DNA of 64,000 bases from Nitrosomonas halophila (GTDB taxonomy: Bacteria; Pseudomonadota; Gammaproteobacteria; Burkholderiales; Nitrosomonadaceae), in assembly GCF_900107165.1 (NCBI RefSeq), contig NZ_FNOY01000004.1, positions 1 to 64,000 of the forward strand, written 5' to 3'. The first letter of the stretch is position 1, and each line of letters opens with the position of its first letter. The position numbers and the translations under genes are program-made. Under the pieces are notes generated by a model. The model saw nothing but the letters and a program-made list of their open reading frames with translations, did no database searches and had not been told where the DNA came from. Of the stretch, positions 2,172 to 43,991 are shown piece after piece.

Positions 2172-2186
2172 TGGCACATATTTTGC
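2172..2186 (+). promoter_or_regulatory. Sigma-54 (-24/-12) promoter for the lytic transglycosylase
   Basis: The sequence TGGCACATATTTTGC has invariant GG (2173-2174) and GC (2185-2186) exactly ten bases apart and matches the sigma-54 consensus closely. It lies about 170 bases before the transglycosylase start, in otherwise non-coding DNA. A TTTACACTG sequence at 2072-2080 may be an upstream activator site, because the same 9-mer occurs upstream of the PEP-CTERM gene promoter. Confidence 0.8.
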
Positions 2187-2355
2187 TTATATTAGTATTG
2201 TATGGAAATGTATGCCCATGAATCATTTTCAGTCACGCTTCAGACAAAATGATTATCGCGTTCATGGTGCAGGTTTGACAGCTGGCCACTGAAAGCAGCG
2301 TGGAGACATAAATAAGCACAAAACCCAGGGCGGAATATTCCAAGGAGATCTCAGC

Positions 2356-3234
2356 ATGCGCATCGATTCCAGATTATTAGCGATATGGTTGGGTTGCTTG
2401 ATGACAAGCAGTCTTGCATTGGCCCAGGATAAAGAAACGCCACCCAGTCAAATCACCCAGGACATCGAAATGCTCGTGGCGGAGGCCCGGCGCCACGAAC
2501 ATGGTGAAGGCGTTCCTCAAGACAGAGAGAAAGCGCTGGAATTGTATTGCCGCGCCGCGCAAAGGGGCTCGGCCGAGGGACAATACGCGCTGGGTTGGAT
2601 GTACGCCAACGGCCGGGGCGTTGCACGCAATGACAACATCGCCGCGCAATTACTCACCATGGCAGCCGCCCAGGAACATCTTCCCGCAAAAAAACTGCTG
2701 CAAATCATTCCGCCACCGGATGAAACCAAGACACACCTCCCCGATTGCTGGCAAACACACCTCCACCAACCAGCCAAAGAATTTTATGTCAGCCAGCCTG
2801 TCTTCGCATTGGTGCAGAAATTAGCTCCTCAGTACCAAATTGATCCGCATCTGGTACTGGCAGTCATTTCCGTGGAATCAGCCTTCAACACACAAGCCGT
2901 ATCCGCAAAAAACGCACAGGGGCTGATGCAGCTCATTCCCGCCACAGCGGAAAGATTTCAGGTCAAAGATGCATTCGACCCGGAGGAAAACATCAAGGGC
3001 GGCATGGCTTATTTAAGATGGCTACTGGCCTTTTTCCAAGGCGATGTCGCTTTAGTGGCCGCCGCATACAATGCCGGAGAAGGCGCCGTGGAAAAACATG
3101 GCGGCATCCCACCCTACCCGGAAACCATCGACTACGTCGAAAAGATTCTTGGCCGCTACCAGAAAACCACCCATCCCTACCAGCCTGAAGCCGCCAACAG
3201 AACTGCTTTTATTTTCACTCGCGCCGATCATTAA
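2356..3234 (+). CDS. Periplasmic lytic transglycosylase with Sel1 repeats (SLT domain)
   Basis: The 292-residue protein begins with a signal peptide (cleavage near SLALA-QD, residue 24). It continues with two Sel1-like TPR repeats (about 35-110; note AQRGSAEGQYALGWMYANG) and a C-terminal SLT transglycosylase domain (about 150-270). The catalytic Glu is in the VESAFN motif, and the family motifs GLMQLIPATA and AAYNAGEGAV are intact, so the enzyme should cleave the MurNAc-GlcNAc bond of peptidoglycan. AAGGAG stands 10 bases before the start. The sigma-54 promoter upstream suggests control by an NtrC-type activator. The partly overlapping frame at 2414-2824 is a shadow. Confidence 0.92.
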   Translation: MRIDSRLLAIWLGCLMTSSLALAQDKETPPSQITQDIEMLVAEARRHEHGEGVPQDREKALELYCRAAQRGSAEGQYALGWMYANGRGVARNDNIAAQLLTMAAAQEHLPAKKLLQIIPPPDETKTHLPDCWQTHLHQPAKEFYVSQPVFALVQKLAPQYQIDPHLVLAVISVESAFNTQAVSAKNAQGLMQLIPATAERFQVKDAFDPEENIKGGMAYLRWLLAFFQGDVALVAAAYNAGEGAVEKHGGIPPYPETIDYVEKILGRYQKTTHPYQPEAANRTAFIFTRADH

Positions 3235-3490
3235 GGACTGCTCGACCACAAATAGAGTCGGCATTCTGCGCACTTGACCTTTGCGCAGACGGATTCTCCC
3301 AATCAGCTCTCCAGTTGTACCCTCTCACCACACCACTACGATCCAGAAAGATTAGGCAACCCAAGCATGCGGGCCACACTCCACAGCCGGCACTCGAAGC
3401 GCATTTGCTCGTAACATCGGACAAATATTTGCACAGTTTTATTCAAGCAGCAACGCCAAACAGAAATCACTACAGACAAAAGACCAAATT

Positions 3491-3514
3491 ATTTGTCTCT
3501 TTTAAGAGACAAAT
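3491..3514. promoter_or_regulatory. 24-bp near-perfect palindrome upstream of the FeeM-like gene
   Basis: ATTTGTCTCTT and its exact complement AAGAGACAAAT are separated by two bases. The loop is too short for a good terminator and no U-tract follows. It lies about 125 bases upstream of the sigma-54 promoter at 3638, a typical distance for an enhancer-binding site, so an activator binding site is possible. The rest of 3235-3775 is AT-rich and non-coding. Confidence 0.45.
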
Positions 3515-3637
3515 AAAATACAAACAGAACAATTAGTTAGTTACGGTAAGTGGTTTTTCTCACAAATATGGCGACAAATATCGTAGACACCATCCAAAAA
3601 TATTAATAACGCACTGATTAAACAACAATTATATTGA

Positions 3638-3652
3638 TGGCACGAATATTGC
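3638..3652 (+). promoter_or_regulatory. Sigma-54 (-24/-12) promoter for the FeeM-like synthase
   Basis: TGGCACGAATATTGC matches the sigma-54 consensus TGGCACG-N4-TTGC at every fixed position, with GG (3639-3640) and GC (3651-3652) ten bases apart. It is about 125 bases before the start of the FeeM-like gene and is the best sigma-54 site seen in the window. Confidence 0.85.
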
Positions 3653-3775
3653 TTATTTTTCGTCAGTGCCTCACTTTATAACTGAATTTTATCACCCTCC
3701 CTACTCACTGATGCAGAACTTTATAGACTGACATGCATTTGATTCGAACAAATATTCTATGAGGAATCGCCACCC

Positions 3776-4669
3776 ATGCTGACCAGTAATCAAACCCAGC
3801 CAGGAACTTCAAGAAAGACCCTTCGACAAACGCACCCGATACCAGATCAATATTCCTCAAATTACATGGCATTTGAAAGAACAGCAGAACCCCTTCCTGC
3901 TCTGCAATATCGCCCATCGCAAAACTGGATACCCCCCACAGACCGAGCGGCCCAGACAGATTGTTTATTGCAAACTGATAGCTACAGCATTCATCTGGTA
4001 AGTACGCTCAAGCAACGCATCAAAGCCAGCACTCTCATCAAGCGCATGTACGCCTCTCGCGGCTACCAGACTGACAGCGCGTCAGTCTTCTCTGCAATCC
4101 CTTTTCAGTACACTTACGAAGCACGCTGCGGGCAGCAAATCATTGGCACATTGACTTTAACCATAGATAGCAACAATGGATTGCTTGCCGATACACTTTA
4201 CAAATCCGAACTGGACCAATTCCGTGAACAGGGACACAAGCCATGTGAGGTATCAAAATTAGCCTTCGCTCCCAACAGCAGCTCCAAGGAAATCTTTGCA
4301 GCCTTGTTTCACATTGCCTATCTCTACGCACACGTACTGCATGATGCACAGGATGCCTTTATTGAAATCAATCCACGCCATATGTCTTTTTACCGGCGCA
4401 TGCTGGGCTTCTGCCAAATTGGACAGCAACAAACCTGCCCCCGGGTCAATGCCCCAGCAGTACTACTTCATTTGGATTTGGAATACATGGGCGCGCAAAT
4501 TACCTCCATGGCAGGGCAACTCAAACGGAGGGAAAGAAGCATATACCCCCTCTTTCTCACACGAAGCGAAGAAGAGGGGGTTATTCAGAGAATACAACCC
4601 AAAAAAACAATCACACACACGCGGCGTGAGTTCTATACCGATACTCGATTATCGCTGGCAAAAACATGA
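3776..4669 (+). CDS. FeeM-like long-chain N-acyl amino acid synthase (GNAT fold)
   Basis: The 297-residue protein resembles the FeeM/N-acyl amino acid synthase family, which joins a fatty acyl group from acyl-ACP to an amino acid. The diagnostic region is EINPRHMSFYRRMLGF near residues 200-215, preceded by a GNAT-like core with GTLTLTIDS and CEVSKLAFAP. The first 70 residues are polar and probably disordered. A GAGGA site precedes the ATG. The last 21 bases before the convergent hydrolase gene are non-coding. Near the 3' end, inside the coding sequence, a 10-bp inverted repeat (4545-4554 with 4572-4581) could form a strong hairpin. The substrate is not readable from sequence. It is one of three acyltransferase-fold genes in the window. 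Confidence 0.75.
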   Translation: MLTSNQTQPGTSRKTLRQTHPIPDQYSSNYMAFERTAEPLPALQYRPSQNWIPPTDRAAQTDCLLQTDSYSIHLVSTLKQRIKASTLIKRMYASRGYQTDSASVFSAIPFQYTYEARCGQQIIGTLTLTIDSNNGLLADTLYKSELDQFREQGHKPCEVSKLAFAPNSSSKEIFAALFHIAYLYAHVLHDAQDAFIEINPRHMSFYRRMLGFCQIGQQQTCPRVNAPAVLLHLDLEYMGAQITSMAGQLKRRERSIYPLFLTRSEEEGVIQRIQPKKTITHTRREFYTDTRLSLAKT

Positions 4670-4690
4670 TCACAGACGCGCCTGCTGCAT

Positions 4691-5986
4691 TTATTCAGCA
4701 GCAAAAGGAGCTTGGCAATCTTCAAGGCACATCAGATCGCGCAACTCGTTATTTCTGTCATCTGTAACAAGCCGCCGCACCCAATCTGTCAGCCTAACAC
4801 CCTCTGCACTGCTCTCCAGGTAGAAATAACCATCTGGTGGCACGGGCTTGAACAGATCTATCAATGCTGCATGGAACACTCCTGCACCTATGTAGTAATT
4901 TACATTTCCACTGGCAGCGACTCCATCAAAAGTGTCGCGCATTCTGACATGCCATTGCAGCCATATTTCGGGAGGTATATTGCTCCACCCCTCTGGATTG
5001 TTAGTTCCCGCATCGGTTTGTAGCATAATATTCAAGAAAAATGCTTGAATACCATCCCACGCAGTGGAATAAAAGGCAAATCGACTCCTTTTGAAATGGC
5101 CAGACAAGTCTGTCACCAGCTGCTGATAAAAAGTATTTGCATCATAGCCACCGACACGATCAATACCGGGGATCCAGGTCGCCAGCGTATCCCTAACCCC
5201 CCAAGGCCCTCCGTCGACCGAATTAAAGACTCGATCGACAAAAGGTTGTGTGAATACCCCCGCAGCCGCATCTACCAGCAAGGCAACGATAGCTCTATTT
5301 GGATAAAGGCTTTGCAATCGCGAGAAATTAAGCACGGCACCATAAGCACCTGCGCTGGAACCTGCTATCAGCACTTTCTCAGCACTTTTTCTGTCAAGAT
5401 TCTGCTTCATCCATTCCCTGACCGCCATGAAATTATCGAATCCCCGATGCTGAACCATTACCGGGTTGCCGGAATTCACGAACCCAAGTGGATCACTGTA
5501 CAGCATGTCACGCGAACCGATATGCACATCGCCAGTACAATACGGAATAAAGATGATATTCCATTCGCGAGTGGGATTGTCTTCGCGCGCAAGATCCATG
5601 ATACCGCCGACTATTTCTGGCATATTTTCCGCTTCAATGGTCGGGTTATAAACCGGGCGCACGCCTGCCACCAAGGAAGTCAAGCAAGTCGCATCATTCC
5701 AGCACGCCCCACCTCCATTGAAATAGATCAGTGTCTTGTCTTTCTTGACACCCTCCCGGAAATAGAAATGAAAAGGCTGATTGGGTATACCCATTTCGTC
5801 CGGCAAATAGCTGAATGCGCAGCCTGGTTTGATACTTCTATCTTGACCATTATCATCTACCACGGTCATTGACGTACTTGAAACTTCTATTTTCTGCCAA
5901 CCACTTGCAGCCACATTGAAAGCCAATAACACACACAAAAGATTCACCGAGAATTTTACAAACCCCTGAAGTCGGATCATATCCAT
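4691..5986 (-). CDS. Secreted pectinacetylesterase/Notum-family serine hydrolase
   Basis: The 431-residue protein starts with a signal peptide or anchor (hydrophobic residues about 10-26). It carries the hallmarks of the pectinacetylesterase/Notum family (PF03283): an oxyanion motif FNGGGACW (about 89-96), the nucleophile motif GSSAGA with Ser near 211, and a late FHAAL histidine. The family removes acyl esters from polysaccharides (pectin acetyl groups) or, in Notum, from a lipidated protein. The ATG at 5986 is preferred over an upstream TTG because GGGAGG lies seven bases before it. It follows the PEP-CTERM gene on the same strand, and a hairpin separates the two. Confidence 0.82.
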   Translation of the reverse strand: MDMIRLQGFVKFSVNLLCVLLAFNVAASGWQKIEVSSTSMTVVDDNGQDRSIKPGCAFSYLPDEMGIPNQPFHFYFREGVKKDKTLIYFNGGGACWNDATCLTSLVAGVRPVYNPTIEAENMPEIVGGIMDLAREDNPTREWNIIFIPYCTGDVHIGSRDMLYSDPLGFVNSGNPVMVQHRGFDNFMAVREWMKQNLDRKSAEKVLIAGSSAGAYGAVLNFSRLQSLYPNRAIVALLVDAAAGVFTQPFVDRVFNSVDGGPWGVRDTLATWIPGIDRVGGYDANTFYQQLVTDLSGHFKRSRFAFYSTAWDGIQAFFLNIMLQTDAGTNNPEGWSNIPPEIWLQWHVRMRDTFDGVAASGNVNYYIGAGVFHAALIDLFKPVPPDGYFYLESSAEGVRLTDWVRRLVTDDRNNELRDLMCLEDCQAPFAAE

Positions 5987-6007
5987 TACCAATCCTCCCA
6001 AATGTAA

Positions 6008-6039
6008 AAGGCCACCGCATATTATTATGCGATGGCCTT
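6008..6039 (-). terminator. Hairpin terminator after the PEP-CTERM gene
   Basis: On the reverse strand, AAGGCCATCGCATA pairs with TATGCGGTGGCCTT (one mismatch) around a four-base loop and is followed by TTTTACATTT. It lies 37 bases past the PEP-CTERM stop, so it probably ends or attenuates transcription before the hydrolase gene. Confidence 0.7.
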
Positions 6040-6075
6040 CAGAAAATTAATTTGAATACTTCAGAGTTGAGTTGC

Positions 6076-6936
6076 CTAGACAGCAATACGGCGCTGCCTT
6101 CTTCCTATACCAAGACCAACAAGTCCCAGGCCCAATAATGCCAATGTTGCCGGCTCCGGCACATCTACAAACGTGCCACCGGAAATATCAGCGGTTCCGC
6201 CAAAACACCAATCGCCTTGACCAGCAGTACCATCAAAGCAACTTCCATTTACCACAGCTGTATCAAACTGGTTCAAACGGCTTCTCAGGTTTGAAAATGA
6301 AGCAGTAATATCTATATCCGCAAAACCGCCGCTGCCATCAGCTACAGAATTTCCATTCAAAAAGCTTGCCACTGAACCAATGCCAAAGCTACCGCTCAAG
6401 TCAACATCATAGAGTCCAGCAGTACTGCCAGAAAGGACCTCTGCTCCGACCAAAGTTCCTGTGCCGATAATATCGCCATTATTGTTGAATCTAGCCCATT
6501 CAGTCAATCCACCAATAGCGATTAAGTTACCTGGAGAACCAGCTGCATTGGTTAGTAAATTCGAAAGCGGTGCATCGGCACGATAGATATCAATCACACC
6601 CGTATCAAACGAAACCGCCGACCCACCTGATTCTACAAAACCAGCAGAGTTGTTAAACGTGGCAATGTAATACAAAGTACAAGTGCCGCCACCGGCACAA
6701 TAACTGGTTTCGCCGTTAACAGTTGTAATTTGGCCATAGGCAGTTACATTCTGACCGTTTCCATCAATTAGTGTTTGAGCCAAAGTAGCTGTCTCAAAAT
6801 GAAAGTTATCTGGGTTATCACCTAAAGCACCAAAATCAATACCCCCGACAACAATAGCATTAGCCGACATCGAGGCAACCAAAGCACCACCCGCAAGGGT
6901 AGCAATCGCCATTTTCTTAAATTTGTTTATCATCAT
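6076..6936 (-). CDS. PEP-CTERM sorting domain protein, exosortase substrate
   Basis: The 286-residue exported protein has an N-terminal signal peptide ending near SANA (residue 27) and a Gly/Ser/Thr/Asn-rich middle typical of a secreted beta-sheet protein. Its tail is a classic PEP-CTERM signal: VPEPATLALL, a hydrophobic GLGLVGLGIG helix, and a basic RRQRR end. Exosortase is expected to cut at this motif and release or attach the protein at the surface. Two internal Cys pairs could form disulfides. AAGGAG precedes the start. A sigma-54 promoter lies about 80 bases upstream. No function can be assigned to the body of the protein. Confidence 0.93.
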   Translation of the reverse strand: MMINKFKKMAIATLAGGALVASMSANAIVVGGIDFGALGDNPDNFHFETATLAQTLIDGNGQNVTAYGQITTVNGETSYCAGGGTCTLYYIATFNNSAGFVESGGSAVSFDTGVIDIYRADAPLSNLLTNAAGSPGNLIAIGGLTEWARFNNNGDIIGTGTLVGAEVLSGSTAGLYDVDLSGSFGIGSVASFLNGNSVADGSGGFADIDITASFSNLRSRLNQFDTAVVNGSCFDGTAGQGDWCFGGTADISGGTFVDVPEPATLALLGLGLVGLGIGRRQRRIAV

Positions 6937-7013
6937 CTTGCTCCTTAAATTTCCGTCTAATGAAACTTACATATCACTCATGAAGACTAGAGTTCTAGCT
7001 CACTTCAATAAAA

Positions 7014-7028
7014 GCAAGTTGCATGCCA
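7014..7028 (-). promoter_or_regulatory. Sigma-54 (-24/-12) promoter for the PEP-CTERM gene
   Basis: Read on the reverse strand, TGGCATGCAACTTGC has GG and GC ten bases apart and differs from consensus only at the sixth base. It is 78 bases upstream of the PEP-CTERM start. Further upstream on this strand is TTTACACTG (7117-7109), also found before the transglycosylase promoter. Confidence 0.8.
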
Positions 7029-12465: not shown

Positions 12466-12716
12466 GGAAAAGAAGCGTCTTTTTCATCATGTTACCGCTG
12501 CACGGCGCATGGAATGCACCCTACGCCTCGGTGGGAATAGCTATCAAGCGTAGGATGTATTACCACCGCACCGTGATAAACGCCTTGTCTACCGCCCCCG
12601 TTACAAAGTCCAGCAGTGGCAAGAAAAGCTGTTGCGTTATCGCTGAGATTCAGAATTCCCAATCAGCTTCGTGCTGTAAAATTTTCCGACACTCGCTCAC
12701 AGGCTCCACAATCTCA

Positions 12717-16034: not shown

Positions 16035-16826
16035 ATGTTCTCGCGAGAATCCGCACACCTGGGCACGTCCTTTGAGCAATATTTCAGGATCGTGCCAGCA
16101 TTAACCGAGGCATTAAAATACGAAGCCTATCGCGTTCGTCACTCGGTTTTTTGTGATGATCTGCAGTTCGAACTGACTCGATTCAATAAATTCGAGATGG
16201 ACGAATATGATGCACATGCACTACATCTCCTGATTCGGAGCATCCAGAGTGAAACCTTTATTGGCTGCACCCGCATCATTCGTCCCTCGCCGGATATGGC
16301 CGATGGGCTCTTGCCGTTCGAAAGAACTTGTGCCGAGACCCTGGATCGCTCCATCATAGACCCATCAAGATTACCCAGAGACAAAATTGCCGAGGTCTCT
16401 CGCCTCGCTGTCGTGGCAACATTCCGCCGCCGCAAAGGCGAAGAAATTAGCCCCCTCGATATCACGGAATCGGACTATGGTGCCGGGCCTATTCCCCGTT
16501 TCCCTTACATTCCACTCGGCCTTTACATCGGAACCGTCGAATTGGCACGAATACATAACATCCAGATACTGTTCATGCTCACCGAAGAACGGCTGGCAAA
16601 ACATTTCAGTCGGCTAGGCGCCCAACTTGAATTTATTGGCGCACCAGTCGAGCACCGTGGTCTACGTTTCCCATCCATGGTGTATGTCGGCGACATCATC
16701 AATAATATGCGGCCGATCTTTCGTCCGCTTTATCAGACCATTGCCACAGAAATCAGAGCCGGTCTGGCTGGAAAAATAATTGTGACCCCATCCAACGAAA
16801 CTCAACGCAGCATCATCGGTTTCTAA
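16035..16826 (+). CDS. PEP-CTERM/exosortase system-associated acyltransferase (first copy)
   Basis: The 263-residue protein matches the exosortase-associated acyltransferase family (TIGR03694 type), with a GNAT-like fold related to acyl-homoserine-lactone synthases. Key regions are YRVRHSVFCDDL near residue 35, DEYDAHALHLLIR near 57, GCTRIIRPS near 78 and the strongly conserved AEVSRLAVVATFRRR near 121-136. An AAGAGAT site precedes the ATG. The likely reaction is transfer of an acyl group to an amine; the substrates are unknown. A second copy of the same length lies at 43200. No sigma-54 site was found in front of this gene. Confidence 0.85.
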   Translation: MFSRESAHLGTSFEQYFRIVPALTEALKYEAYRVRHSVFCDDLQFELTRFNKFEMDEYDAHALHLLIRSIQSETFIGCTRIIRPSPDMADGLLPFERTCAETLDRSIIDPSRLPRDKIAEVSRLAVVATFRRRKGEEISPLDITESDYGAGPIPRFPYIPLGLYIGTVELARIHNIQILFMLTEERLAKHFSRLGAQLEFIGAPVEHRGLRFPSMVYVGDIINNMRPIFRPLYQTIATEIRAGLAGKIIVTPSNETQRSIIGF

Positions 16827-19924: not shown

Positions 19925-21139
19925 TCAGCTGTTACGCCGCGCCTGTGCAATACGCATTCTCAGTGCATTGAGCTTGATGAACCCTGCTGCGTCAGCATGA
20001 TTGTAAGCGCCTTCGTCGTCCTCGAAAGTCGCGATATTGGGATCGAACAATGAATCCGTCTTCGAATCACGTCCAATCACCATGACATTTCCCTTGTATA
20101 GTTTGACACGTACCCAGCCATTCACGGAAGTCTGCGATCCATCAATCATGGTTTGCAAAAGCTTCCGCTCCGGACTCCACCAGTAACCGTTATAAATCAG
20201 TGCTGCATAACGTGGCATCAGGTCATCCTTCAAATGCGCCACTTCCCGGTCGAGCGTGATGGACTCGATCGCACGGTGTGCGCGCAACATGATCGTTCCA
20301 CCTGGGGTTTCATAGCAGCCGCGTGACTTCATGCCAACATAACGATTCTCGACCAGATCCAGGCGGCCAATGCCATGTTTGCCGCCAAGTTGATTGAGTT
20401 TGGCCAGCACAGCGGCTGGAGAAAGTTTCTCGCCGTTCAGTGCAACAATGTCACCATGTTCGTATTCGATATCCAGATACTCCGGTTCATCGGGCGCTGC
20501 CTCAGGAGCTACCGACCAGCGCCACATGGATTCTTCGGGCGCTTGGGCCGGATCTTCCAGCGCACGCCCTTCATAGGAAATATGCAGCAAATTGGCATCC
20601 ATGCTATAGGGTGAGCCTTGCTTTTGCTTCATCTCGATCGGAATCCCCTGTTTTTCCGCATAGATCAGCAGCTTCTCACGCGAGGTCAGATCCCATTCAC
20701 GCCAGGGTGCGATAACGTGGATATCTGGTTGCAGCGCATAATAACCCAGCTCGAACCGGACTTGATCATTGCCCTTTCCGGTTGCGCCATGCGACACGGC
20801 ATCCGCTCCCGTTGCGCGCGCAATCTCGATCTGCCGCTTGGCAATCAGGGGTCTGGCAATACTGGTGCCAAGCAGATATTCGCCCTCATAAACAGTATTG
20901 GCACGGAACATGGGAAAGACATAGTCGCGCACAAACTCTTCACGCAAGTCTTCAATAAATATCTCCTTGATGCCAAATTGTTTGGCCTTGGCGCGTGCCG
21001 GTTCGATCTCCTCGCCTTGACCAATATCAGCGGTGAAGGTCACGACTTCACACTGATAGGTATCTTGCAGCCATTTGAGTATGACCGAAGTATCCAGTCC
21101 CCCTGAAAACGCCAGAACAGTTTTCTTAATTTTATCCAT
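19925..21139 (-). CDS. argG: Argininosuccinate synthase
   Basis: The 404-residue enzyme joins citrulline and aspartate with ATP to make argininosuccinate, the next-to-last step to arginine. The ATP loop FSGGLDTS is at residues 10-17. Typical segments follow: [19 protein letters not shown], the APEEAP-type insertion and [14 protein letters not shown] near 270. The ATG at 21139 is chosen over an upstream TTG because [14 protein letters not shown] is the family start. argF lies 39 bases upstream on the same strand, so they are probably cotranscribed. Confidence 0.96.
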
Positions 21140-31339: not shown

Positions 31340-33724
31340 ATGTTGCGCAGACTTCTGATCTTTTTGTTTGCCCTGGCGATGGCCAGTCTGGTCCTCATCT
31401 GGCTACTCCTGCAAGGCAGTCTACCCGCTTATGAAGGGAAGCACCCCCTTGCTGGCCTGCTCAGCACCGTAGCAGCCGAGCGAGATGCGTTGGGCAGTGT
31501 TACCTTGCGCGCCGAAAACCGTTCCGATCTGGCGCGCAGCCTGGGTTTCATTCATGCGCAAGAACGTTTCTTCGAAATGGATCTGCTGCGTCGTCAAGCT
31601 GCGGGCGAACTGGCGGAACTATTTGGTGCTGTGGCATTACCGGCTGATCGCAGAAATCGCGCACACCGCATGCGGGCGCGTGTCCGTGCCATGCTGGCGG
31701 AATTACCCGATGATCAGCGTGACCTGCTCGCTGCTTATCGGGATGGCGTCAATCAAGGACTGGACAGCTTGCAGGTACGCCCATTCGGATACCTGCTGAC
31801 ACAAACCACTCCGCACCCCTGGCGCAGCGAGGACAGTTTGTTAGTCGTCATAGCGATGTACATGACACTGCAGGAGGGCAGTATTGATCGCGAGCTGGGG
31901 CTTTCAGTCATGCATGCGGCGTTGCCGGAGTCAGCCTATCGGTTTCTGGTTGCCAGTGGCGGTGAATGGGATGCGCCGCTGAATGGCAACAAATTCAAAT
32001 GGCCCCCTCATCCTGCAATGACTGATATCGATTTGCGCGCACTCGATCAGCATCTTATCCAGGACATAGATTTTGAGGAAGTGCCTGCTGCGGGCAGCAA
32101 TAGCTTTGCCGTGGCGGGAGAGCTGGCGACAAATGGCGCATTGGTAGCAAACGATCTACATTTGCCCTTACGAGCACCCAGTTTATGGTTCCGCACGCGC
32201 CTGATTTATCCAGACCCCGCGCAACCGCACCAAAGCATTGATATTAACGGTGTCAGTCTGCCTGGTACCCCGGCCATAGTTGTTGGCGCCAATCGGCATA
32301 TCGCATGGGGCTTTACCAATGCGTATGGGGATTTTGCCGATTGGGTGAGAATCACGCTTGATCCAGCCGACGCCTCCCGTTACTACAATCATGGCCAGTG
32401 GAAAACCCTCTCGACCCAGCGGGAAACATTGCGCGTAAACGGTGCGCCTGATGAAACGCTGGAAATCCATGAAACGGAATGGGGACCCATCCTGGCCAGG
32501 GATCATGACGGCGCACCGCTGGCACTGGCCTGGGCAGCACACCGGCCAGGCGCCGTCAATCTCGACCTCATCGAACTTGAACGGACGACCAGTGCCGACC
32601 AAGCCGCCACCATCGCACAGAAAGCAGGCATTCCGGCACAAAATTTCATTGTCGGTGATCGACAGGGGAACATTGCCTGGACAATCGGTGGCCGCATACC
32701 TGCACGCATGGGTGACTACGACTTCAGTCTACCGGCAAACTGGGGCAGCCAGCCAATCGGTTGGAATGGCTGGCTTGACCACACGCATTACCCGCTGATC
32801 AAGAACCCGCCGGGCATGCGCCTCTGGAATGGAAACTCGAGAATGATCGATGGTGATTTGCTTGATCGGCTGGGTGACGGTGGTTATGAACTGGGCGCAC
32901 GCAGTAAGCAAATCCGTGACCAATTGCATGCACGCGACCATTTTTTGCCCACTGATCTGCTCGCAATTCAACTGGATAGCCGCGCACTGCTGCTCACCCG
33001 CTGGAAACACTTGCTTGAGCAAACGCTACAAAATACGCCTTCCACTGCAGTTTGGCGCGTGGAAATAGAGCAAGCGTTGCGCGACTGGGATGGCCAGGCC
33101 TCGCCCCACTCTGTCGCCTACCGGGTCGTTCGCGATTTTCGTCATGAGGTCATGAGACACACATTGAGCGGCTTTACCGCCATGATCAAACTGAAATTTC
33201 CAGATTTCATGCCCCCACGCTTGAGCCAGGCCGAGCATGCCGTGTGGAAACTGATTGAACAGCAACCACCACACTTGCTGCCACCTGGCCACGACAATTG
33301 GAATGGCTTGCTGGCAGCATGCGCAAAACATATTGCGAAACAAATGCTAACCCGGCCTGGCGGCATTGCCGCGCACACTTGGGGAGAGCAGAATACCGCT
33401 GAAATCCGGCATCCACTCAGCCGCGCCCTGCCGGCGTGGATCGCAAAGTGGCTGGACATGCCGGCAGATCCCATGCCTGGCGATCACCACATGCCACGTG
33501 TGCAAGTGAAAAGCTTCGGCGCCTCACTCCGTTTTGTCGTCACCCCCGGCCAGGAGGAATCCGGATTCTTTCACATGCCTGGCGGGCAAAGCGGCCATCC
33601 TCTCTCTCCCTACTATGGCAGCGGCCACCATGACTGGGCAACTGGAAACAGCAGCGCTTTTTTACCAGGTCCACCTGAACGGACACTGCAACTCTATCCC
33701 CCGAGTATGATTCCACATCCATAG
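31340..33724 (+). CDS. Penicillin acylase family amidohydrolase (Ntn hydrolase)
   Basis: The 794-residue precursor has an N-terminal hydrophobic segment (about 5-25) that exports it. It has an alpha-chain region with FIHAQERFFEMDLLRRQAAGELAELFG, and a self-cleavage site at G/SNSFAVAG (nucleophile Ser near 253). The beta chain contains NDLHLPLRAPSLWFRTRLIY and PSLWF-type substrate-site residues. The family (PF01804) hydrolyses amide bonds of beta-lactams, acyl-homoserine lactones or N-acyl amino acids. An AHL or N-acyl amino acid substrate is plausible beside so many acyltransferases, but is not shown. Confidence 0.9.
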   Translation: MLRRLLIFLFALAMASLVLIWLLLQGSLPAYEGKHPLAGLLSTVAAERDALGSVTLRAENRSDLARSLGFIHAQERFFEMDLLRRQAAGELAELFGAVALPADRRNRAHRMRARVRAMLAELPDDQRDLLAAYRDGVNQGLDSLQVRPFGYLLTQTTPHPWRSEDSLLVVIAMYMTLQEGSIDRELGLSVMHAALPESAYRFLVASGGEWDAPLNGNKFKWPPHPAMTDIDLRALDQHLIQDIDFEEVPAAGSNSFAVAGELATNGALVANDLHLPLRAPSLWFRTRLIYPDPAQPHQSIDINGVSLPGTPAIVVGANRHIAWGFTNAYGDFADWVRITLDPADASRYYNHGQWKTLSTQRETLRVNGAPDETLEIHETEWGPILARDHDGAPLALAWAAHRPGAVNLDLIELERTTSADQAATIAQKAGIPAQNFIVGDRQGNIAWTIGGRIPARMGDYDFSLPANWGSQPIGWNGWLDHTHYPLIKNPPGMRLWNGNSRMIDGDLLDRLGDGGYELGARSKQIRDQLHARDHFLPTDLLAIQLDSRALLLTRWKHLLEQTLQNTPSTAVWRVEIEQALRDWDGQASPHSVAYRVVRDFRHEVMRHTLSGFTAMIKLKFPDFMPPRLSQAEHAVWKLIEQQPPHLLPPGHDNWNGLLAACAKHIAKQMLTRPGGIAAHTWGEQNTAEIRHPLSRALPAWIAKWLDMPADPMPGDHHMPRVQVKSFGASLRFVVTPGQEESGFFHMPGGQSGHPLSPYYGSGHHDWATGNSSAFLPGPPERTLQLYPPSMIPHP

Positions 33725-34234: not shown

Positions 34235-34546
34235 ACCCGGAGTATTCAGTTGCCTGCTATTCTAGATAACCAATAGAATAGCGAAGTAATCGGCCGGATG
34301 CCGCAAATCGCGCCGAAGAAACACAAAGTAGCTAGCTTATGGCAAAGTGAGATGTGGCGCTGCAAAAGACCGATATAGCAATGGTGCATATTGCCCGTAG
34401 AATAGCGTGGTCATGGGTGACGTTATCGACATTGGTGAATCGACTCGGCGGATTATAGCCGCAGGGACGATATCCCGTTTGAGAGAGTGAGCAAGACAAC
34501 GTACCCGATGCAGCGCCCCATTTCACAACGAATGATGGAGCAAACC

Positions 34547-35908
34547 ATGCCAAGATGCAATCGCACGATCAAGCTTAAGCCGGGCAAATCGCGGACTGCC
34601 CTGACCATCACCCACCCCAATGCAGCCGGCATCGACATTGGCAGCGCCTCTCACTTTGTTGTCGTGCCACCTGACCGGGATGATGAGCCGGTACGGGAGT
34701 TTCCGAGTTTCACGGATGATCTTAATGCCTTGGCCGACTGGCTTGACGCCTGCGGCGTAGATACAGTTGCCATGGAATCCACGGGTGTGAACTGGATTCC
34801 CTTGTTCGAATTACTGGAGTCGCGCGGTTTCACCGTATTGTTAGTCAACGCACGTCATGTCAAGAACGTCTCGGGCCGTAAATCCGATGTACTTGATTGT
34901 CAATGGCTGCAACAGCTCATGACCTATGGCTTGCTTCGTGGCGCATTTCGTCCGTCTGATGAAGTATGTGTATTGCGCTCGCTGTGGCGCCAGCGAGGAA
35001 TGCTCCTGAAAACCCAGGGGCGTCATGTGCAGCACATGCAAAAAGCGCTTACGCAAATGAATATTCAACTCGCCAACGTTATCTCCGACGTCGTGGGAGA
35101 AACAGGGCAGAAGATTCTGCGCGCCATTGTTGCTGGCGAGCGAGATGGGCAGGTATTGGCCGCAATAAAAAATATACGTATCCGCGCCAGCGAGGACGAG
35201 ATTGCCAAAAGCCTGCAAGGCAACTGGCGTACCGAACACCTGTTTGCGCTTAAACAGGCACTCGCCATGTTCGACTTTATCGGTTTGCAACTGGCCGAGT
35301 GTGATCGAGAAATTGAAACCCAATTGAAAAGCTTGCAAGTACATGATGGTGAGCCACCCAAAAGCAAGAAGCGCAGTCGTCCCCGCAACGCACCAAAGTT
35401 TGATCTACGTACGCAACTGTACAGGATGTGTGGCGTAGATCTCACGCGCATTGATGGTATCGATGTCACTACCGCACTCGCGGTAATCTCTGAGACCGGA
35501 GCAGACATGACCCGTTTTACAACGGTCGGCCGTTTCACGAGTTGGCTGGGACTGTGTCCGGGTACCAAGATTACCGGCGGCAAAGTGATGAGCGGCAAGA
35601 CCAAACGGGTAACCAACCGCGCGGCCCAAGCCTTGAAGCTGGCCGCGGCGGCATTGCGCAGCAGCAAATCTGCGCTAGGTGCGTACTTCCGAAGAATGTG
35701 TGCGCGCATGGACAAGCCCAAAGCTGTGACTGCGGCTGCACACAAACTGGCGCGGCTAATTTACACGATGCTCACTAAAGGTGAGGAATATACCGATCGA
35801 GGCCAGGATTATTACGAGGAACGATACCGCCAGCGTGTATTGCGGAATCTGGCTCATCGTGCTGAGGAAATGGGAATGAAACTCGTTGTTAATGAAAATC
35901 TATCTTAA
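34547..35908 (+). CDS. IS110-family transposase
   Basis: The 453-residue enzyme has the N-terminal DEDD RuvC-like domain of IS110 recombinases (AGIDIGSASH with the first Asp, MESTGVNW with Glu, KSDVLDCQWLQ with Asp) and the C-terminal Tnp_20 domain (LCPGTKITGGK, then SALGAYFRR with the conserved Ser). GGAG precedes the ATG at 34547; a GTG further upstream (34487) is less likely. IS110 elements integrate with a guide (bridge) RNA encoded in a non-coding end. The 310 bases before the gene contain no other gene and could hold it. The exact element ends are not visible. Confidence 0.92.
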   Translation: MPRCNRTIKLKPGKSRTALTITHPNAAGIDIGSASHFVVVPPDRDDEPVREFPSFTDDLNALADWLDACGVDTVAMESTGVNWIPLFELLESRGFTVLLVNARHVKNVSGRKSDVLDCQWLQQLMTYGLLRGAFRPSDEVCVLRSLWRQRGMLLKTQGRHVQHMQKALTQMNIQLANVISDVVGETGQKILRAIVAGERDGQVLAAIKNIRIRASEDEIAKSLQGNWRTEHLFALKQALAMFDFIGLQLAECDREIETQLKSLQVHDGEPPKSKKRSRPRNAPKFDLRTQLYRMCGVDLTRIDGIDVTTALAVISETGADMTRFTTVGRFTSWLGLCPGTKITGGKVMSGKTKRVTNRAAQALKLAAAALRSSKSALGAYFRRMCARMDKPKAVTAAAHKLARLIYTMLTKGEEYTDRGQDYYEERYRQRVLRNLAHRAEEMGMKLVVNENLS

Positions 35909-36043: not shown

Positions 36044-36222
36044 CGTAAACGTCTTATCCTATGCGTTTATACACCGGCAGAGGAATTTCCCCGCTTGCAA
36101 ACAGGATTCAACCATTAATTTTCATGGAAACATGTCGATAAAACTTACACACCGTTTCAACAAACATTGAAGCGCTTCTGCAAAATCGCCATGTTGGCTG
36201 GCGCTACACGATTTCTTACAGC

Positions 36223-37581
36223 ATGAAAATGAACAAGGACTCAAAAAAACTGCTCGTAGTGGAAGATGACCCAGGGCTACAAAAACAATTACGCTGGAGC
36301 TTCGATAATTGTGAGGTGATTGTCGCATCTGACCGGGAAAGCGCGCTTGCGCAAGTTCGCCGGCATGAGCCAGCAGTCGTCACCATGGACCTCGGTCTGC
36401 CCCCTGATCCAGATGGCGCATCGGAAGGCTTGGCCACGCTTCAGCAAATTCTGGCACTGACACCCGATATCAAAGTCATTGTTTTAACAGGCAACCAGAA
36501 TCGCGCCAATGCTCTAAAAGCGATAGACCTGGGGGCCTACGATTTTCATCAAAAACCTTTTGATGCCAGCGTTCTGAACCTGATCGTGGATAGAGCCTTC
36601 TATCTGCACCAGTTACAACGCGAAAATCGGAAGTTGCTCCAATCATGCTCGGCTTCGCCGATTTCGGATTTCATCACCGGCGATCCCAACATGATCAAAA
36701 TATGCCAGCAAATCGAACGGGTTGCTTCGTCCGATGTGACAGTGACACTGCTCGGAGAAAGCGGGACTGGCAAGGAAGTACTGGCCAAAGCACTGCATCA
36801 ACTCAGCAATAGAAAAAAGAAACGCCTGATAGCGGTCAATTGTGCAGCCATCCCTGAAACATTGCTGGAGGCAGAGCTGTTTGGTTATGAAAAAGGCGCC
36901 TTTACCGGCGCCGCCAAACAAACTCCGGGCAAAATCGAGCTGGCCCAGGAGGGTACATTTTTTCTGGATGAAGTCGGTGATCTGCCCCTCTCGTTACAGG
37001 CCAAGCTATTGAGATTCCTGCAAGAACGCGTAATTGAACGTGTAGGAGGAAGAGAAGAAATTCCAATGGATGTGCGTATTGTCTGCGCAACACATCGGGA
37101 TTTGCGGGCAATGATCGGGAGCGGCACGTTCCGCGAGGATTTATATTACCGTTTATGCGAAATCAGCATCCCGATTCCCGCCTTGCGGGATCGTGTCGGT
37201 GATGCCATCTTGCTTGCCCATCACTTCAAAAATCAGTTCTATGCCAAAGAAAAGCGTCAGTCATTGAATTTCAGTCAGGACGCACTGGATGCGATTGATA
37301 GCCACCACTGGCCGGGTAACGTGCGTGAAATCGAAAACTGCATCAAACGCGCGGTCATCATGGCAGAAGGCCCTCAAATCACGGCAGAGGACCTGGGATT
37401 ACAGCCAGCAAACGTTTCTTCGCAACCCGCGACGCTGCGCGAAGCCCGGGACAAGGTCGAATGCGAAACCCTGGTCAAGGCATTAGCCAGAGTAGATGGC
37501 AATATCGCCAGGGCTGCCGAGCTACTGGGCGTCACCCGGCCCACGCTCTATGACTTGATGAACCGGCATGGACTCAAGTAA
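36223..37581 (+). CDS. prsR: PrsR, sigma-54-dependent response regulator of the PEP-CTERM system
   Basis: The 452-residue NtrC-type activator has a receiver domain (about 8-125; acidic EDDP, phospho-acceptor Asp in VTMDLGLPP near 55, Lys in FHQKPF). Its AAA+ domain (about 145-380) has Walker A GESGTGKE, the sigma-54 contact loop GAFTGA (about 222-227), Walker B FFLDEVGDL, and a Fis-type helix-turn-helix at the C-terminus (NIARAAELLGVTRPTLYDLM). The whole-length match is to the PEP-CTERM-box response regulator (TIGR02915). Three sigma-54 promoters within the first 7 kb are likely targets. Its usual partner kinase PrsK is not in the window; the IS110 element sits where it would be expected. Confidence 0.92.
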   Translation: MKMNKDSKKLLVVEDDPGLQKQLRWSFDNCEVIVASDRESALAQVRRHEPAVVTMDLGLPPDPDGASEGLATLQQILALTPDIKVIVLTGNQNRANALKAIDLGAYDFHQKPFDASVLNLIVDRAFYLHQLQRENRKLLQSCSASPISDFITGDPNMIKICQQIERVASSDVTVTLLGESGTGKEVLAKALHQLSNRKKKRLIAVNCAAIPETLLEAELFGYEKGAFTGAAKQTPGKIELAQEGTFFLDEVGDLPLSLQAKLLRFLQERVIERVGGREEIPMDVRIVCATHRDLRAMIGSGTFREDLYYRLCEISIPIPALRDRVGDAILLAHHFKNQFYAKEKRQSLNFSQDALDAIDSHHWPGNVREIENCIKRAVIMAEGPQITAEDLGLQPANVSSQPATLREARDKVECETLVKALARVDGNIARAAELLGVTRPTLYDLMNRHGLK

Positions 37582-37773: not shown

Positions 37774-39354
37774 ATGCCTAATCTTTTTCACGAACTGATT
37801 TACCAATCCGCCGAGAGAGGCGCGCAATCCGATGCGCTGATTGACCACAAGCAACATATGGACTATCCAACGCTGGCCGGTGCGGTTCAATCGACCGCCG
37901 GCGCCCTGCAAGCGTTGGGATTCAAGCGCGGGGAACGTCTGGCGGTCTACCTGGAAAAACGATTCGAAACGGTCATCGCCTTGTTTGGCGCATCTGCCGC
38001 AGGCGGGGTATTCGTCCCGATCAACCCATTGCTCAAAGCTGAACAAGTCTCTTATATTCTCAATGACTGCAATGTCAGGATACTGGTCACTTCCGCCGAA
38101 CGGCTGGCGTTACTCAAATCGGTGCTGCCAAACTGCCATGATTTACAAAGAATAATCGTAGTGGGCGAGACAAAAGAATGGCCGTTGATTGCCGGACTGG
38201 AAATCGTGCACTGGCAGCAGCTGCAAAAACCATTTGGAATGATGTATGCCCCGCACTGTATCGATAGTGATATGGCCGCGATTTTATATACTTCCGGCAG
38301 CACAGGCAAACCGAAGGGCGTGGTGCTCTCTCACCGCAATCTTGTAACCGGCGCCAAAAGTGTTTCTCAATACTTACGCAATCACGCTGAAGACCGAATC
38401 CTTGCTGTCCTGCCGCTCAGTTTCGATTATGGCCTGAATCAATTGACAACTGCTTTCCATGTCGGGGCAACCAGCATCCTCATGAACTATCTGCTCCCAC
38501 GTGATATTCTCACGCTTATCAAAAAGCAGCATGTCAGCGGATTGGCGGCAGTGCCGCCGCTATGGACACAGCTTTCACATCTGGACTGGCAGGATATCAA
38601 GACTCTGCGCTACATTACCAACTCGGGTGGCGCCATGCCGCGCTCGACTTTGGCACGTCTGCGGAGCGCCCTGCCCAATACACAAGTCTTTCTGATGTAT
38701 GGTTTAACCGAGGCCTTCCGGTCAACCTATCTGCCGCCGGAACAAATAGACAAACGCCCCGATTCCATGGGCAAGGCCATTCCCAACGTTGAAGTCATGG
38801 TTTTGCGAGAGGATGGCTCCCACTGTGCGCCAGGCGAACCCGGCGAACTTGTCCATCGTGGCCCGCTCGTTTCAATGGGTTATTGGAACGATGCCGACAA
38901 AACGGCGGCCTGTTTCCGTTCACTCACACCGCGTCAACCTGGCCTGACCATACCGGAGCTTGCAGTGTGGTCAGGCGATACGGTACGCATGGATGAAGAA
39001 GGCTATTTATACTTTATCGGCCGCCGCGATGACATGATCAAGACCTCCGGCTATCGCGTCAGCCCGACCGAAGTCGAAGAAGTGATTTACGCAACCGAAA
39101 AAGTGATCGAGGCCGCGGCTTTTGGCGTGCCGCATCCTGCGCTCGGTCAGGCCATCGTCGTCGTTGCAGTACCCAAGGAAAACCTCGATGTGTCACCAGA
39201 GATTTTACTGGCTGCTTGCAAAAAACACTTGCCCGCGTTCATGTTGCCCAGCCTCATCGAATTGAGGCAAGCCAGCCTGCCGCGCAATCCAAATGGAAAA
39301 ATTGACCGCAAAAGTCTCGCCACGGTATTTGAACAAGCTTTCATCACAGCATAA
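37774..39354 (+). CDS. Exosortase A system-associated acyl-CoA ligase (AMP-forming)
   Basis: The 526-residue enzyme belongs to the adenylate-forming superfamily and fits the exosortase-associated subgroup (TIGR03098 type). Motifs are the P-loop YTSGSTGKPKG (about 171-181), MYGLTEAF (about 308), SGDTVRMDEEGYLYFIGRRDDMIKTSGYRVSPTEVE in parts (about 405-440) and the catalytic Lys in NPNGKIDRK near the end. It should activate a carboxylic acid as acyl-AMP for loading on a carrier or CoA. The PLP decarboxylase starts three bases after its stop. Confidence 0.92.
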   Translation: MPNLFHELIYQSAERGAQSDALIDHKQHMDYPTLAGAVQSTAGALQALGFKRGERLAVYLEKRFETVIALFGASAAGGVFVPINPLLKAEQVSYILNDCNVRILVTSAERLALLKSVLPNCHDLQRIIVVGETKEWPLIAGLEIVHWQQLQKPFGMMYAPHCIDSDMAAILYTSGSTGKPKGVVLSHRNLVTGAKSVSQYLRNHAEDRILAVLPLSFDYGLNQLTTAFHVGATSILMNYLLPRDILTLIKKQHVSGLAAVPPLWTQLSHLDWQDIKTLRYITNSGGAMPRSTLARLRSALPNTQVFLMYGLTEAFRSTYLPPEQIDKRPDSMGKAIPNVEVMVLREDGSHCAPGEPGELVHRGPLVSMGYWNDADKTAACFRSLTPRQPGLTIPELAVWSGDTVRMDEEGYLYFIGRRDDMIKTSGYRVSPTEVEEVIYATEKVIEAAAFGVPHPALGQAIVVVAVPKENLDVSPEILLAACKKHLPAFMLPSLIELRQASLPRNPNGKIDRKSLATVFEQAFITA

Positions 39355-39356
39355 AC

Positions 39357-40592
39357 ATGAAGACCACCCATCCTCAACACGCACCCATGACCCAATTTCC
39401 CGTGCAGGATCACTGTCTGGTCATTGGCGATATGCCTCTCACACGCCTGGCCCAGCGAGTCGGATCCACGCCTTTTTACGCTTATGACCGGCAACTGATT
39501 ACCACCCGCGTCAATTCCCTGAGGCAGCACTTGCCCCCCAACATACACCTGCATTACGCAATGAAGGCCAATCCCATGCCAGCTGTTGTACAGCATCTGG
39601 CAAACCTGGTTGATGGCATTGATGTGGCCTCTGTTGGAGAAATGCAGGTGGCACTCAATGCAGGCGTCTCTCCCGAGAACATCAGTTTTGCAGGGCCTGG
39701 CAAAAGCCGGCAGGAACTCGCCTGCGCCATTGCTGCCGGGATCATTCTGAACGTGGAATCGGAAACCGAACTGGAACAAATCGCCGAACTGGCCCATGCA
39801 ACGGGGTTTCACCCCAAAGTGGCCATACGCGTCAATCCCGACTTCGAGTTAAAAGCATCCGGTATGAAGATGGGGGGAGGATCCAAACAGTTCGGTATTG
39901 ACGCTGAACGCGTTCCTGCGGTCCTGAACCGTATCGCAGCACTGAAGCTGGCGTTTGAAGGACTGCATATCTTCAGCGGCTCTCAGAATCTCAAGGTAGA
40001 CGCAATCCAGGAAGCGCATGAAAAAACCCTGCAGCTTGGCTTGCAACTGGCCTCGATCTCACCCATGCCAGTTCGGCACATCAATATCGGCGGCGGATTT
40101 GGTATCCCCTATTTTCCCGGAGATACGCCGCTTGACCTGAGTGCAGTAGGGGCCAACCTGGGCCAGTTGCTAATGGCAATCAAACCCCGATTGCCAGACA
40201 CTCGGTTTGTGATCGAGCTGGGTCGCTATATCGTTGCGGAAGCAGGCATTTATGTCTGCCAGGTACTCGAAAAGAAAATATCGAGAGAACAAATATTTTT
40301 GGTGACGAACGGCGGCCTGCATCATCATCTGGCCGCATCTGGCAACTTTGGCCAAGTGATCCGTAAAAATTACCCGGTTGCTGTCGGAAACAAAATGCAC
40401 CTGACCGAAACCGAAATAGCTTCAGTGGTCGGACCGCTCTGCACACCGCTGGATTTACTCGCTGACCGGATGAAGCTGTCCAAGGCCGAACCAGGAGACT
40501 TCATTGTCATCTTTCAGTCCGGTGCCTATGGACTGACTGCCAGCCCCACCTCTTTTCTTAGCCACCCGCCCCCAATGGAAGTTTTAGTTTAG
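39357..40592 (+). CDS. Exosortase A system-associated PLP-dependent decarboxylase
   Basis: The 411-residue enzyme is a fold-III decarboxylase related to diaminopimelate/ornithine decarboxylases and fits the exosortase-associated subgroup (TIGR03099 type). The PLP Lys is in HYAMKANP (about 62-69), the glycine-rich phosphate loop is NIGGGFGIPY (about 243), and the C-terminus SPTSFLSHPPPMEVLV matches the family. A second ATG at 39387 (MTQFPVQDH) is a possible true start. The stop codon TAG is completed by the first base of an inverted-repeat element. The acyl carrier protein that normally follows in exosortase loci is absent. Confidence 0.92.
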   Translation: MKTTHPQHAPMTQFPVQDHCLVIGDMPLTRLAQRVGSTPFYAYDRQLITTRVNSLRQHLPPNIHLHYAMKANPMPAVVQHLANLVDGIDVASVGEMQVALNAGVSPENISFAGPGKSRQELACAIAAGIILNVESETELEQIAELAHATGFHPKVAIRVNPDFELKASGMKMGGGSKQFGIDAERVPAVLNRIAALKLAFEGLHIFSGSQNLKVDAIQEAHEKTLQLGLQLASISPMPVRHINIGGGFGIPYFPGDTPLDLSAVGANLGQLLMAIKPRLPDTRFVIELGRYIVAEAGIYVCQVLEKKISREQIFLVTNGGLHHHLAASGNFGQVIRKNYPVAVGNKMHLTETEIASVVGPLCTPLDLLADRMKLSKAEPGDFIVIFQSGAYGLTASPTSFLSHPPPMEVLV

Positions 40593-42911: not shown

Positions 42912-43199
42912 TAATTTGATTGATTTTCTTTTATCTCTGCTATCAAATCATGATAGATTGCAAGAATTAATTTTATGTCTCATTATGACGACATATTAAT
43001 TGAGGAACAAACGCTGATCATGCCATGGGTATGTCAGGCATATGCGTAGTTGATCAAACTGCCAGCCCTGAGATAAAAAAATAAAGGCAAATCACGAACA
43101 TATTCACTGAATTGAAACCGGGTCTGCATCATACAATAGAGTTTACTCAGTCTGAATCTATCGATTTCATTTTAAATCATACTTCGCCAAGAGAGCGTC

Positions 43200-43991
43200 A
43201 TGAACGATATCGAAGCAGCTTTCCATCAATATTTTGAAATCGTAACCGCTGATACCGAAGAGTTGCTTAAAGAAGTTTTTAACTTACGCTTTCGAATTTT
43301 GTGTGTGCATAACATCATCCCGGGTTTCAACAGCTCAAATTACCCCGAAGAATTGGAAAGTGATGAGTACGATAAACGTTCGGTTCATATTTTGCTACGC
43401 CACCGGCCAACCGGAATTTTTTTAGGGACCGCACGGCTCATCCTTCCCGACAGAGAACATCTTCACAAAAAATTCCCGACTGAATTGCATACCCGTTTTT
43501 TTCCAGGCTTTGCTCTAAACGAAACATCCCGTCAGCATACGGCCGAAATATCACGCTTCGCTGTTCTCAGCGACTTCTTCAGACGCAGAAGCAAGCTCCA
43601 TATGCCCTCCCAATCTACCAATCCAGCACACAAGCGCCAGGAACGTCGGCGTTGTCCTCACCCGTCACTGGGACTCGCGGTTGGGATTATCAAGCTATGT
43701 GCGCAGCACAATATCTATTACTGGCTCTCATCCATGGATCCTGCCTTGAATAGGTTGCTAGGGTTTTACGGTTTACAGCTCAACCCTATCGGCCCATCGA
43801 TCCATTATCATGGCATCCGCAGTCCTTACCATGCTTGTTTGTTCGATGTACTGGACAGAATGCACCGGGACCATAGAGCCATTTGGGAACTCGTCACAGA
43901 CCATGGGAAAATTTGGCCCATTGATCTCACATCGATACGTGCTAATTGGTTACCAGAATCCAATACTCATTACATCCGCGCGTCTCGATAA
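43200..43991 (+). CDS. PEP-CTERM/exosortase system-associated acyltransferase (second copy)
   Basis: The 263-residue protein is a diverged paralogue of the 16035 gene and has the same length. It shares EYDKRSVHILLRHR, GTARLILPD and the conserved AEISRFAVLSDFFRRRSKL segment (about 115-135). The middle is more basic (NPAHKRQERRR), and the predicted active-site region is intact. AGAGCG stands just before the start. The 288 bases before it hold no gene and no sigma-54 site that I could accept. It probably acylates an amine substrate different from that of the first copy. Confidence 0.84.
   Translation: MNDIEAAFHQYFEIVTADTEELLKEVFNLRFRILCVHNIIPGFNSSNYPEELESDEYDKRSVHILLRHRPTGIFLGTARLILPDREHLHKKFPTELHTRFFPGFALNETSRQHTAEISRFAVLSDFFRRRSKLHMPSQSTNPAHKRQERRRCPHPSLGLAVGIIKLCAQHNIYYWLSSMDPALNRLLGFYGLQLNPIGPSIHYHGIRSPYHACLFDVLDRMHRDHRAIWELVTDHGKIWPIDLTSIRANWLPESNTHYIRASR

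Follow-up and report, generated by a model that had tools for sequence, protein, structure and literature searches.

Do three sigma-54 promoters that lie within 5 kb of one another answer to one activator or to more? The question is raised by a stretch of DNA of 64,000 nucleotides (nt; the window) on contig C87 of the 3.21 Mb genome of the ammonia-oxidising bacterium Nitrosomonas halophila, in which -24/-12 elements at 2172, 3638 and 7028 precede genes for a lytic transglycosylase, a FeeM-like N-acyl amino acid synthase and a PEP-CTERM protein. A preliminary description had tentatively placed all three genes in the regulon of PrsR, a response regulator encoded in the same window. For the transglycosylase and PEP-CTERM genes, which have exact PrsR-type boxes upstream, this assignment is well supported by sequence; the FeeM-like gene, in contrast, has no such box and is preceded by a GlrR-type site that is conserved in its family. 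We consider it likely, with good confidence, that the promoters belong to two enhancer-binding-protein circuits, one run by PrsR and the other by a GlrR-like protein. What looked like a single regulon would then be two circuits, each open to test, and a specific activator and operator could be predicted for the FeeM-like gene that ammonia oxidisers carry.

Three sigma-54 elements within 5 kb

The elements lie at 2172-2186 (TGGCACATATTTTGC, plus strand), 3638-3652 (TGGCACGAATATTGC, plus strand) and 7028-7014 (TGGCATGCAACTTGC, minus strand), with RNA starts predicted near 2198, 3664 and 7002, respectively. As originally described, each keeps its GG and GC ten bases apart, and each agrees with the consensus TGGCAY...TTGC in non-coding DNA ahead of a gene, outside any open reading frame (ORF) of at least 100 amino acids (aa). 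Pfam matches bear out the genes behind them: a Sel1-repeat and SLT lytic transglycosylase ORF (2356-3234, plus strand), a FeeM-like N-acyl amino acid synthase ORF (3776-4669, plus strand) and a PEP-CTERM protein ORF (6936-6076, minus strand). The synthase ORF reaches 175.9 bits with PF21926, for which the gathering score is 27, and also matches FeeM itself (PDB 2g0b, E 8.4e-14); its product probably makes fatty-acid-linked amino acids. The top NCBIfam match of the PEP-CTERM protein is floc_PepA, at 51.5 bits and under the cut-off of 80.

In its strict form, TGGCAY-N5-TTGC, the sigma-54 pattern has 50 matches genome-wide compared with 7 in a reversed control. Twelve of the 50 fall outside ORFs of at least 100 aa, and the three elements described here are among those 12. 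One more strict match in the window, the fourth, sits within argG (20856-20870, minus strand) and is probably noise. The genome encodes RpoN (473.8 bits, over cut-off).

PrsR boxes precede the 2172 and 7028 promoters

The available text of Haft et al (2006; PMC1569441) describes, for PEP-CTERM genes of proteobacteria, an upstream motif of 17 nt that ends in TTTACA, followed by a spacer (mean 62.8 nt, range 32-92) and a sigma-54 motif, and predicts PrsR as the protein that binds the 17-nt motif. Combining that text with our reading of this genome, we write the motif as TGTC-N7-TTTACA (the PrsR box). Exact boxes ending in TTTACA stand ahead of two of the three sigma-54 sites, at 2061-2077 (TGTCGATTTCTTTTACA, plus strand, 94 nt upstream of the -24) and at 7128-7112 (TGTCGGAATTCTTTACA, minus strand, 83 nt upstream of the -24). 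No exact or one-mismatch box precedes the element at 3638.

The arrangement recurs in the genus. When 85 genomes were scanned for a box followed after 40-100 nt by TGGC-N8-TGC, pairs were present in 34, with a single match in all of the reversed controls. This genome has seven, two of them in the window and the rest on contigs C59, C72, C73, C78 and C103; those on C59 and C72 precede other PEP-CTERM genes. Of the four PEP-CTERM genes that exceed the Pfam cut-off, all but the one on C47 have a promoter of this kind. Homologues of the transglycosylase occur in 27 of the 85 genomes, all 27 of which contain box pairs; upstream of these homologues, an exact box with TGG-N10-GC was found in 14 cases and a version with one or two mismatches in a further two. 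Control of the transglycosylase and PEP-CTERM genes by PrsR is thus well supported at the level of sequence, and since both boxes fit the motif that Haft et al predicted for PrsR, this half of the result is an addition of new members to an already known regulon.

PrsR itself (36223-37581, plus strand) scores 766.3 bits against an NCBIfam cut-off of 502.6 and has the GAFTGA loop attributed to it in the preliminary description. The same description noted that PEP-CTERM systems carry PrsK together with PrsR, and of this pair the regulator is encoded here, whereas the kinase gene does not adjoin prsR. In its place upstream are a penicillin-amidase-family gene (31340-33724) and an IS110 transposase (34487-35908). 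A tblastn comparison of a relative's PrsK with the stretches fetched from this genome, short of a genome-wide search, gave weak kinase matches only (28-29% identity). Among relatives, G063 and G001 have an ORF of 793 aa before prsR, and in G011 prsK (905.3 bits) adjoins it. The proximity of an N-acyl amidase-type enzyme to an N-acyl amino acid synthase system may be of significance.

A one-mismatch PrsR box (TGTCGATAAAACTTACA, 36133-36149) lies 74 nt upstream of the prsR start codon, and no clear sigma-54 element was seen near it by eye; autoregulation of prsR through this box is possible. On contig C103 (locus L038, 1212-1440), a PrsR box and sigma-54 promoter are followed after about 100 nt by what appears by eye to be a terminator-like GC hairpin and T run, with no ORF of note behind the promoter; a small RNA or a decayed gene is possible. 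Behind the PEP-CTERM gene of the window, before a downstream pectinacetylesterase-like gene, an inverted repeat (6006-6042) followed by a minus-strand T run also looks terminator-like by eye.

A GlrR-type site precedes the FeeM-like gene

The 3638 promoter has a different upstream arrangement. At 3494-3511, 126 nt upstream of the sigma-54 element, lies the palindrome TGTCTCTTTTAAGAGACA, and an exact IHF consensus (3607-3619, minus strand) stands between the two. In the available text of two papers, the site of QseF (= GlrR) is given as TGT-N12-ACA, with assistance by IHF and with the sigma-54 promoters of glmY and rpoE as targets (PMC6075780), and as TGTC-N10-GACA (PMC8745638). The palindrome of the FeeM promoter has the form TGT-N12-ACA and is followed by an IHF consensus and then the sigma-54 element. 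A GCGACA block at 3571-3576 (plus strand), conserved in the genus alignment, might tentatively be half of a second site.

We found 17 copies of FeeM homologues in 16 of the 85 genomes, a count that leaves out a fragment in G017. Every copy is preceded, no more than 950 nt from the matched start, by GTCTC-N6-GAGAC with one mismatch at most. In 14 of the 17, TGG-N10-GC follows 125-131 nt past the palindrome, and 11 of those 14 promoters match the IHF consensus exactly at 30-32 nt ahead of the -24.

A wider set comprised the best 80 of 106 named loci with FeeM relatives, 18 of which belong to Nitrosomonas, Nitrosospira or Nitrosovibrio. A GlrR-type site precedes all 18 of these Nitrosomonadaceae loci, 15 being found by a script (TGTC-N10-GACA, at most two mismatches) and three by eye. 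At L215, L218 and L219 the palindrome core is present, and the -24, read by eye, has AGG or CGG instead of TGG. A PrsR box with a sigma-54 site was found at none of these 80 loci, and single-base shuffles of their upstream regions (20 for each) yielded no operator and sigma-54 match of either kind. Among the 62 other loci, L228 and L229 had no GlrR-type site with a sigma-54 element even in a looser scan.

We also considered whether GlrR control of FeeM is general in the beta-proteobacteria. This idea was rejected, as only two of the 62 loci outside the Nitrosomonadaceae, L275 and L284, have a GlrR-type site with a sigma-54 element, in both cases more than 700 nt upstream. In L284 (Propionivibrio), two TGTC-N10-GACA sites and a sigma-54 element lie about 0.65-0.8 kb upstream of the FeeM relative. 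There may be GlrR-type promoters near FeeM outside the Nitrosomonadaceae, possibly serving another gene.

A GlrR-like regulator is encoded elsewhere in the genome

A candidate to bind the palindrome is encoded outside the window, on contig C119 (26327-27694). Of 442 aligned residues, 252 (57%) are identical in this protein and E. coli GlrR. The two have the same domain architecture and the same recognition helix, RNRTEFYKLL, whereas the helix of PrsR differs. GlrR is the best-fitting family (594.3 bits, the next scoring 415.3), and since the score stays under the GlrR cut-off (NCBIfam NF011695, 763) we call the protein GlrR-like. As in E. coli, a kinase gene precedes that of the regulator (145 of 466 residues identical to GlrK). 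Between them, at the position of the lipoprotein QseG, lies an ORF of 179 aa with a lipobox-like LTGC.

Activators and operators across the genus

The 85 genomes were then compared for activators and operators, without correction for relatedness and with a GlrR-like protein called at E <= 1e-150. Such a protein is present in 32 genomes, and PrsR over cut-off also in 32. The box and PrsR occur together in 31 genomes, the box alone in 3, PrsR alone in 1 and neither in 50. The palindrome with TGG-N10-GC gave 39 listed matches, in 25 genomes, against 2 control matches; 22 of the 25 encode the GlrR-like protein, as do all 20 of the palindrome genomes with good -24 elements. Every one of the 16 FeeM genomes has the GlrR-like protein, and 15 have PrsR.

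Genomes with a single activator number five on each side. In the five with the GlrR-like protein alone, the palindrome was found in 5, the box in 2, FeeM in 1 and the transglycosylase in 1; the corresponding counts in the five with PrsR alone were 0, 4, 0 and 4. Where both are encoded (27 genomes), the palindrome is present in 17, the box in all 27, FeeM in 15 and the transglycosylase in 22. Among the 48 with neither, there are 3 with the palindrome, 1 with the box and none with FeeM or the transglycosylase. The single-activator genomes therefore separate the two operators, and PrsR probably drives two of the genes and the GlrR-like protein the third.

Further genes behind the palindrome

Elsewhere in this genome the exact form TGTCTCT-N4-AGAGACA occurs once, ahead of an S8 subtilase gene and 65 nt upstream of the sigma-54 site there. 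We scanned ten proteins encoded behind the palindrome, this subtilase and nine from relatives. Matches over cut-off were to subtilase (two), a multihaem cytochrome c, a ricin-B-type lectin domain and PEP-CTERM; under cut-off were weak matches to di-haem peroxidase (two) and to DUF5666 (one), and two of the ten had no domain match. The link to the palindrome is loose for the cytochrome (L112) and for one unmatched protein (L108), because their ORFs start more than 500 nt past the -12. Judged by eye from their N-termini, the palindrome-linked proteins appear to be exported; as a set, they suggest a regulon of surface and secretion functions.

Weighing the alternatives

One alternative is that all three genes form one PrsR regulon, the FeeM palindrome being a variant PrsR site. 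The PrsR box and the palindrome do share TGT...ACA ends, PrsR is encoded in all but one of the FeeM genomes, and feeM is flanked in the window by two PrsR boxes. However, the half-sites are spaced by N12 in the palindrome and by N11 in the box, the recognition helix of PrsR is unlike that of GlrR, and the palindrome is found in 5 of 5 GlrR-only and 0 of 5 PrsR-only genomes. Together with the lack of a box before 3638 and the count of 0 in 80 named loci, the single-activator genomes led us to reject this explanation, which we regard as unlikely. It is also improbable, and rather strongly so, that the palindrome serves as the site of a different sigma-54 activator, or of a dimeric regulator of an unrelated kind. 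The genome does encode further activators, of which we read, besides PrsR and the C119 protein, a V4R-type (C39), an FlrC-like (C77) and an NtrX-like protein (C102) and one on C152; three weaker activator-domain matches lie on C82, C95 and C99. Among the six activators read, however, RNRTEFYKLL was seen by eye in the C119 protein alone, the palindrome agrees with the GlrR consensus in the literature as well as with an actual site of E. coli GlrR, and the GlrR-like protein accompanies it in 22 of 25 genomes.

That the three sites are chance matches rather than promoters seems extremely improbable. The loose sigma-54 pattern (at most two mismatches) is indeed near background in the window, with 113 matches compared with 93.9 +/- 10.6 and 4 of 100 shuffles reaching 113, and some operators there have no adequate sigma-54 site, namely exact PrsR boxes at 12675 and 14626 and a TGTC-N10-GACA at 42976, upstream of the exosortase-associated acyltransferase gene at 43200. 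Pairs of operator and sigma-54 site, in contrast, are rare in reversed controls (2 against 39 listed matches for the palindrome, 1 control match for the box), are absent from the shuffled upstream regions of the 80 loci, and recur before homologous genes.

Several observations nevertheless weigh against an assignment to two circuits. The co-occurrence counts ignore kinship, and the comparison of single-activator genomes is of 5 with 5. Three genomes (G090, G097 and G103) match the palindrome pattern with neither activator, albeit with poor -24 elements. Such elements also account for the only matches in G063 and G036, which are among the 22 with the GlrR-like protein; the two GlrR-only genomes with PrsR boxes are G019 and G035. 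Eleven of the 27 transglycosylase homologues have no box and sigma-54 pair upstream. An IHF consensus in the position described is not special to GlrR promoters: the fetched loci show it in 11 of 29 distinct promoters with the palindrome and in 13 of 58 distinct ones with the box. Finally, the C119 protein does not reach the GlrR cut-off, and no similarity to QseG was found for the ORF that lies in its position.

A model with two circuits

From the elements, their spacing and conservation, the encoded activators and their co-occurrence we infer how the two circuits might work, from signal and phosphorylation through protein-DNA contact to expression. In one, phosphorylated PrsR would bind TGTC-N7-TTTACA some 83-94 bp upstream of the -24 at 2172 and 7028, and the GAFTGA loop of its AAA+ domain would open the sigma-54 polymerase, switching on the lytic transglycosylase and the PEP-CTERM surface protein. 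In the other, the GlrR/QseF-like regulator, with a kinase gene of its own, would bind TGTCTCTTTTAAGAGACA 126 bp upstream of 3638, IHF would bend the intervening DNA at 3607-3619, and the sigma-54 polymerase would transcribe the FeeM-like gene.

The available text of PMC6075780 links the GlrR (QseF) of enterobacteria to homeostasis of the cell envelope. Control of a lipid-amino-acid enzyme by GlrR therefore suggests that the state of the envelope may gate production by the FeeM-like enzyme. We lean, if only slightly, towards a broader idea, namely that the GlrR of the Nitrosomonadaceae has been rewired from enterobacterial control of an envelope small RNA and rpoE to a direct sigma-54 switch. 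This would serve a surface and secretion programme headed by the FeeM-like synthase and also comprising a subtilase, exported haem proteins, a lectin-domain protein and a PEP-CTERM protein, and would be separable from the parallel PrsR switch by a half-site spacing one base apart (TGT-N11-ACA for PrsR, TGT-N12-ACA for GlrR). PrsR and the GlrR-like protein would also offer a pair of related activators in which to study separation by operator spacing.

Comparison with known systems

The available text of PMC12826045 makes no mention of QseF, GlrR, TGTC or an enhancer. Among the matches listed in open-licence PMC, no paper joined GlrR or QseF with FeeM or an N-acyl amino acid synthase, and in the same collection none was found that joined exosortase with GlrR or QseF. 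FeeM N-acyl amino acid synthases have a published link to exosortase systems. The protein described here resembles them in its domain match (PF21926, PDB 2g0b) and in having exosortase-associated genes elsewhere in the window. The preliminary description had placed the promoters near exosortase genes. Exosortase-A-associated genes do lie at 16035, 37774-40592 and 43200, although no exosortase was found among the window ORFs that were scanned, which were a part of the total. Two exosortase-associated acyltransferases (16035-16826 and 43200-43991) match TIGR03694, both over cut-off.

Compared with the PEP-CTERM/PrsR system in the available text of PMC1569441, the 2172 and 7028 promoters agree in motif, spacer and sigma-54 site, and PrsR is encoded. 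They differ in that the spacer of 94 nt is just outside the published range (that of 83 nt is within it), that one target is a lytic transglycosylase and that prsK does not adjoin prsR. The promoter of the FeeM-like gene does not match this system. A further parallel for the 7028 promoter is pepA of Aquincola tertiaricarbonis RN12, a PEP-CTERM gene for which the available text of PMC9850573 reports a mapped sigma-54-type start, dependence on RpoN1 and a predicted upstream enhancer. Both genes have a sigma-54-type promoter with a predicted enhancer upstream, although the organisms differ, the promoter described here is predicted from sequence, and its protein stays under the floc_PepA cut-off.

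The FeeM promoter is best compared with the GlrR-IHF-sigma-54 promoters of E. coli glmY and rpoE, with which it shares a TGT-N12-ACA site, an IHF consensus, a sigma-54 element and an activator with the same recognition helix. It differs in its lineage, in its protein-coding FeeM-like target, in having one clear palindrome rather than three sites, and in the absence of a demonstrated QseG. In E. coli K-12, taken as a control, glmY has three exact sites, exact matches to the IHF consensus and the sigma-54 element TGGCACAGTTACTGC, and one of those sites, TGTCTCTTTTTAGCGACA, has nearly the same letters as the FeeM palindrome. The GlrR operator would thus be almost letter for letter the same in E. 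coli and in beta-proteobacteria, in front of quite different target genes.

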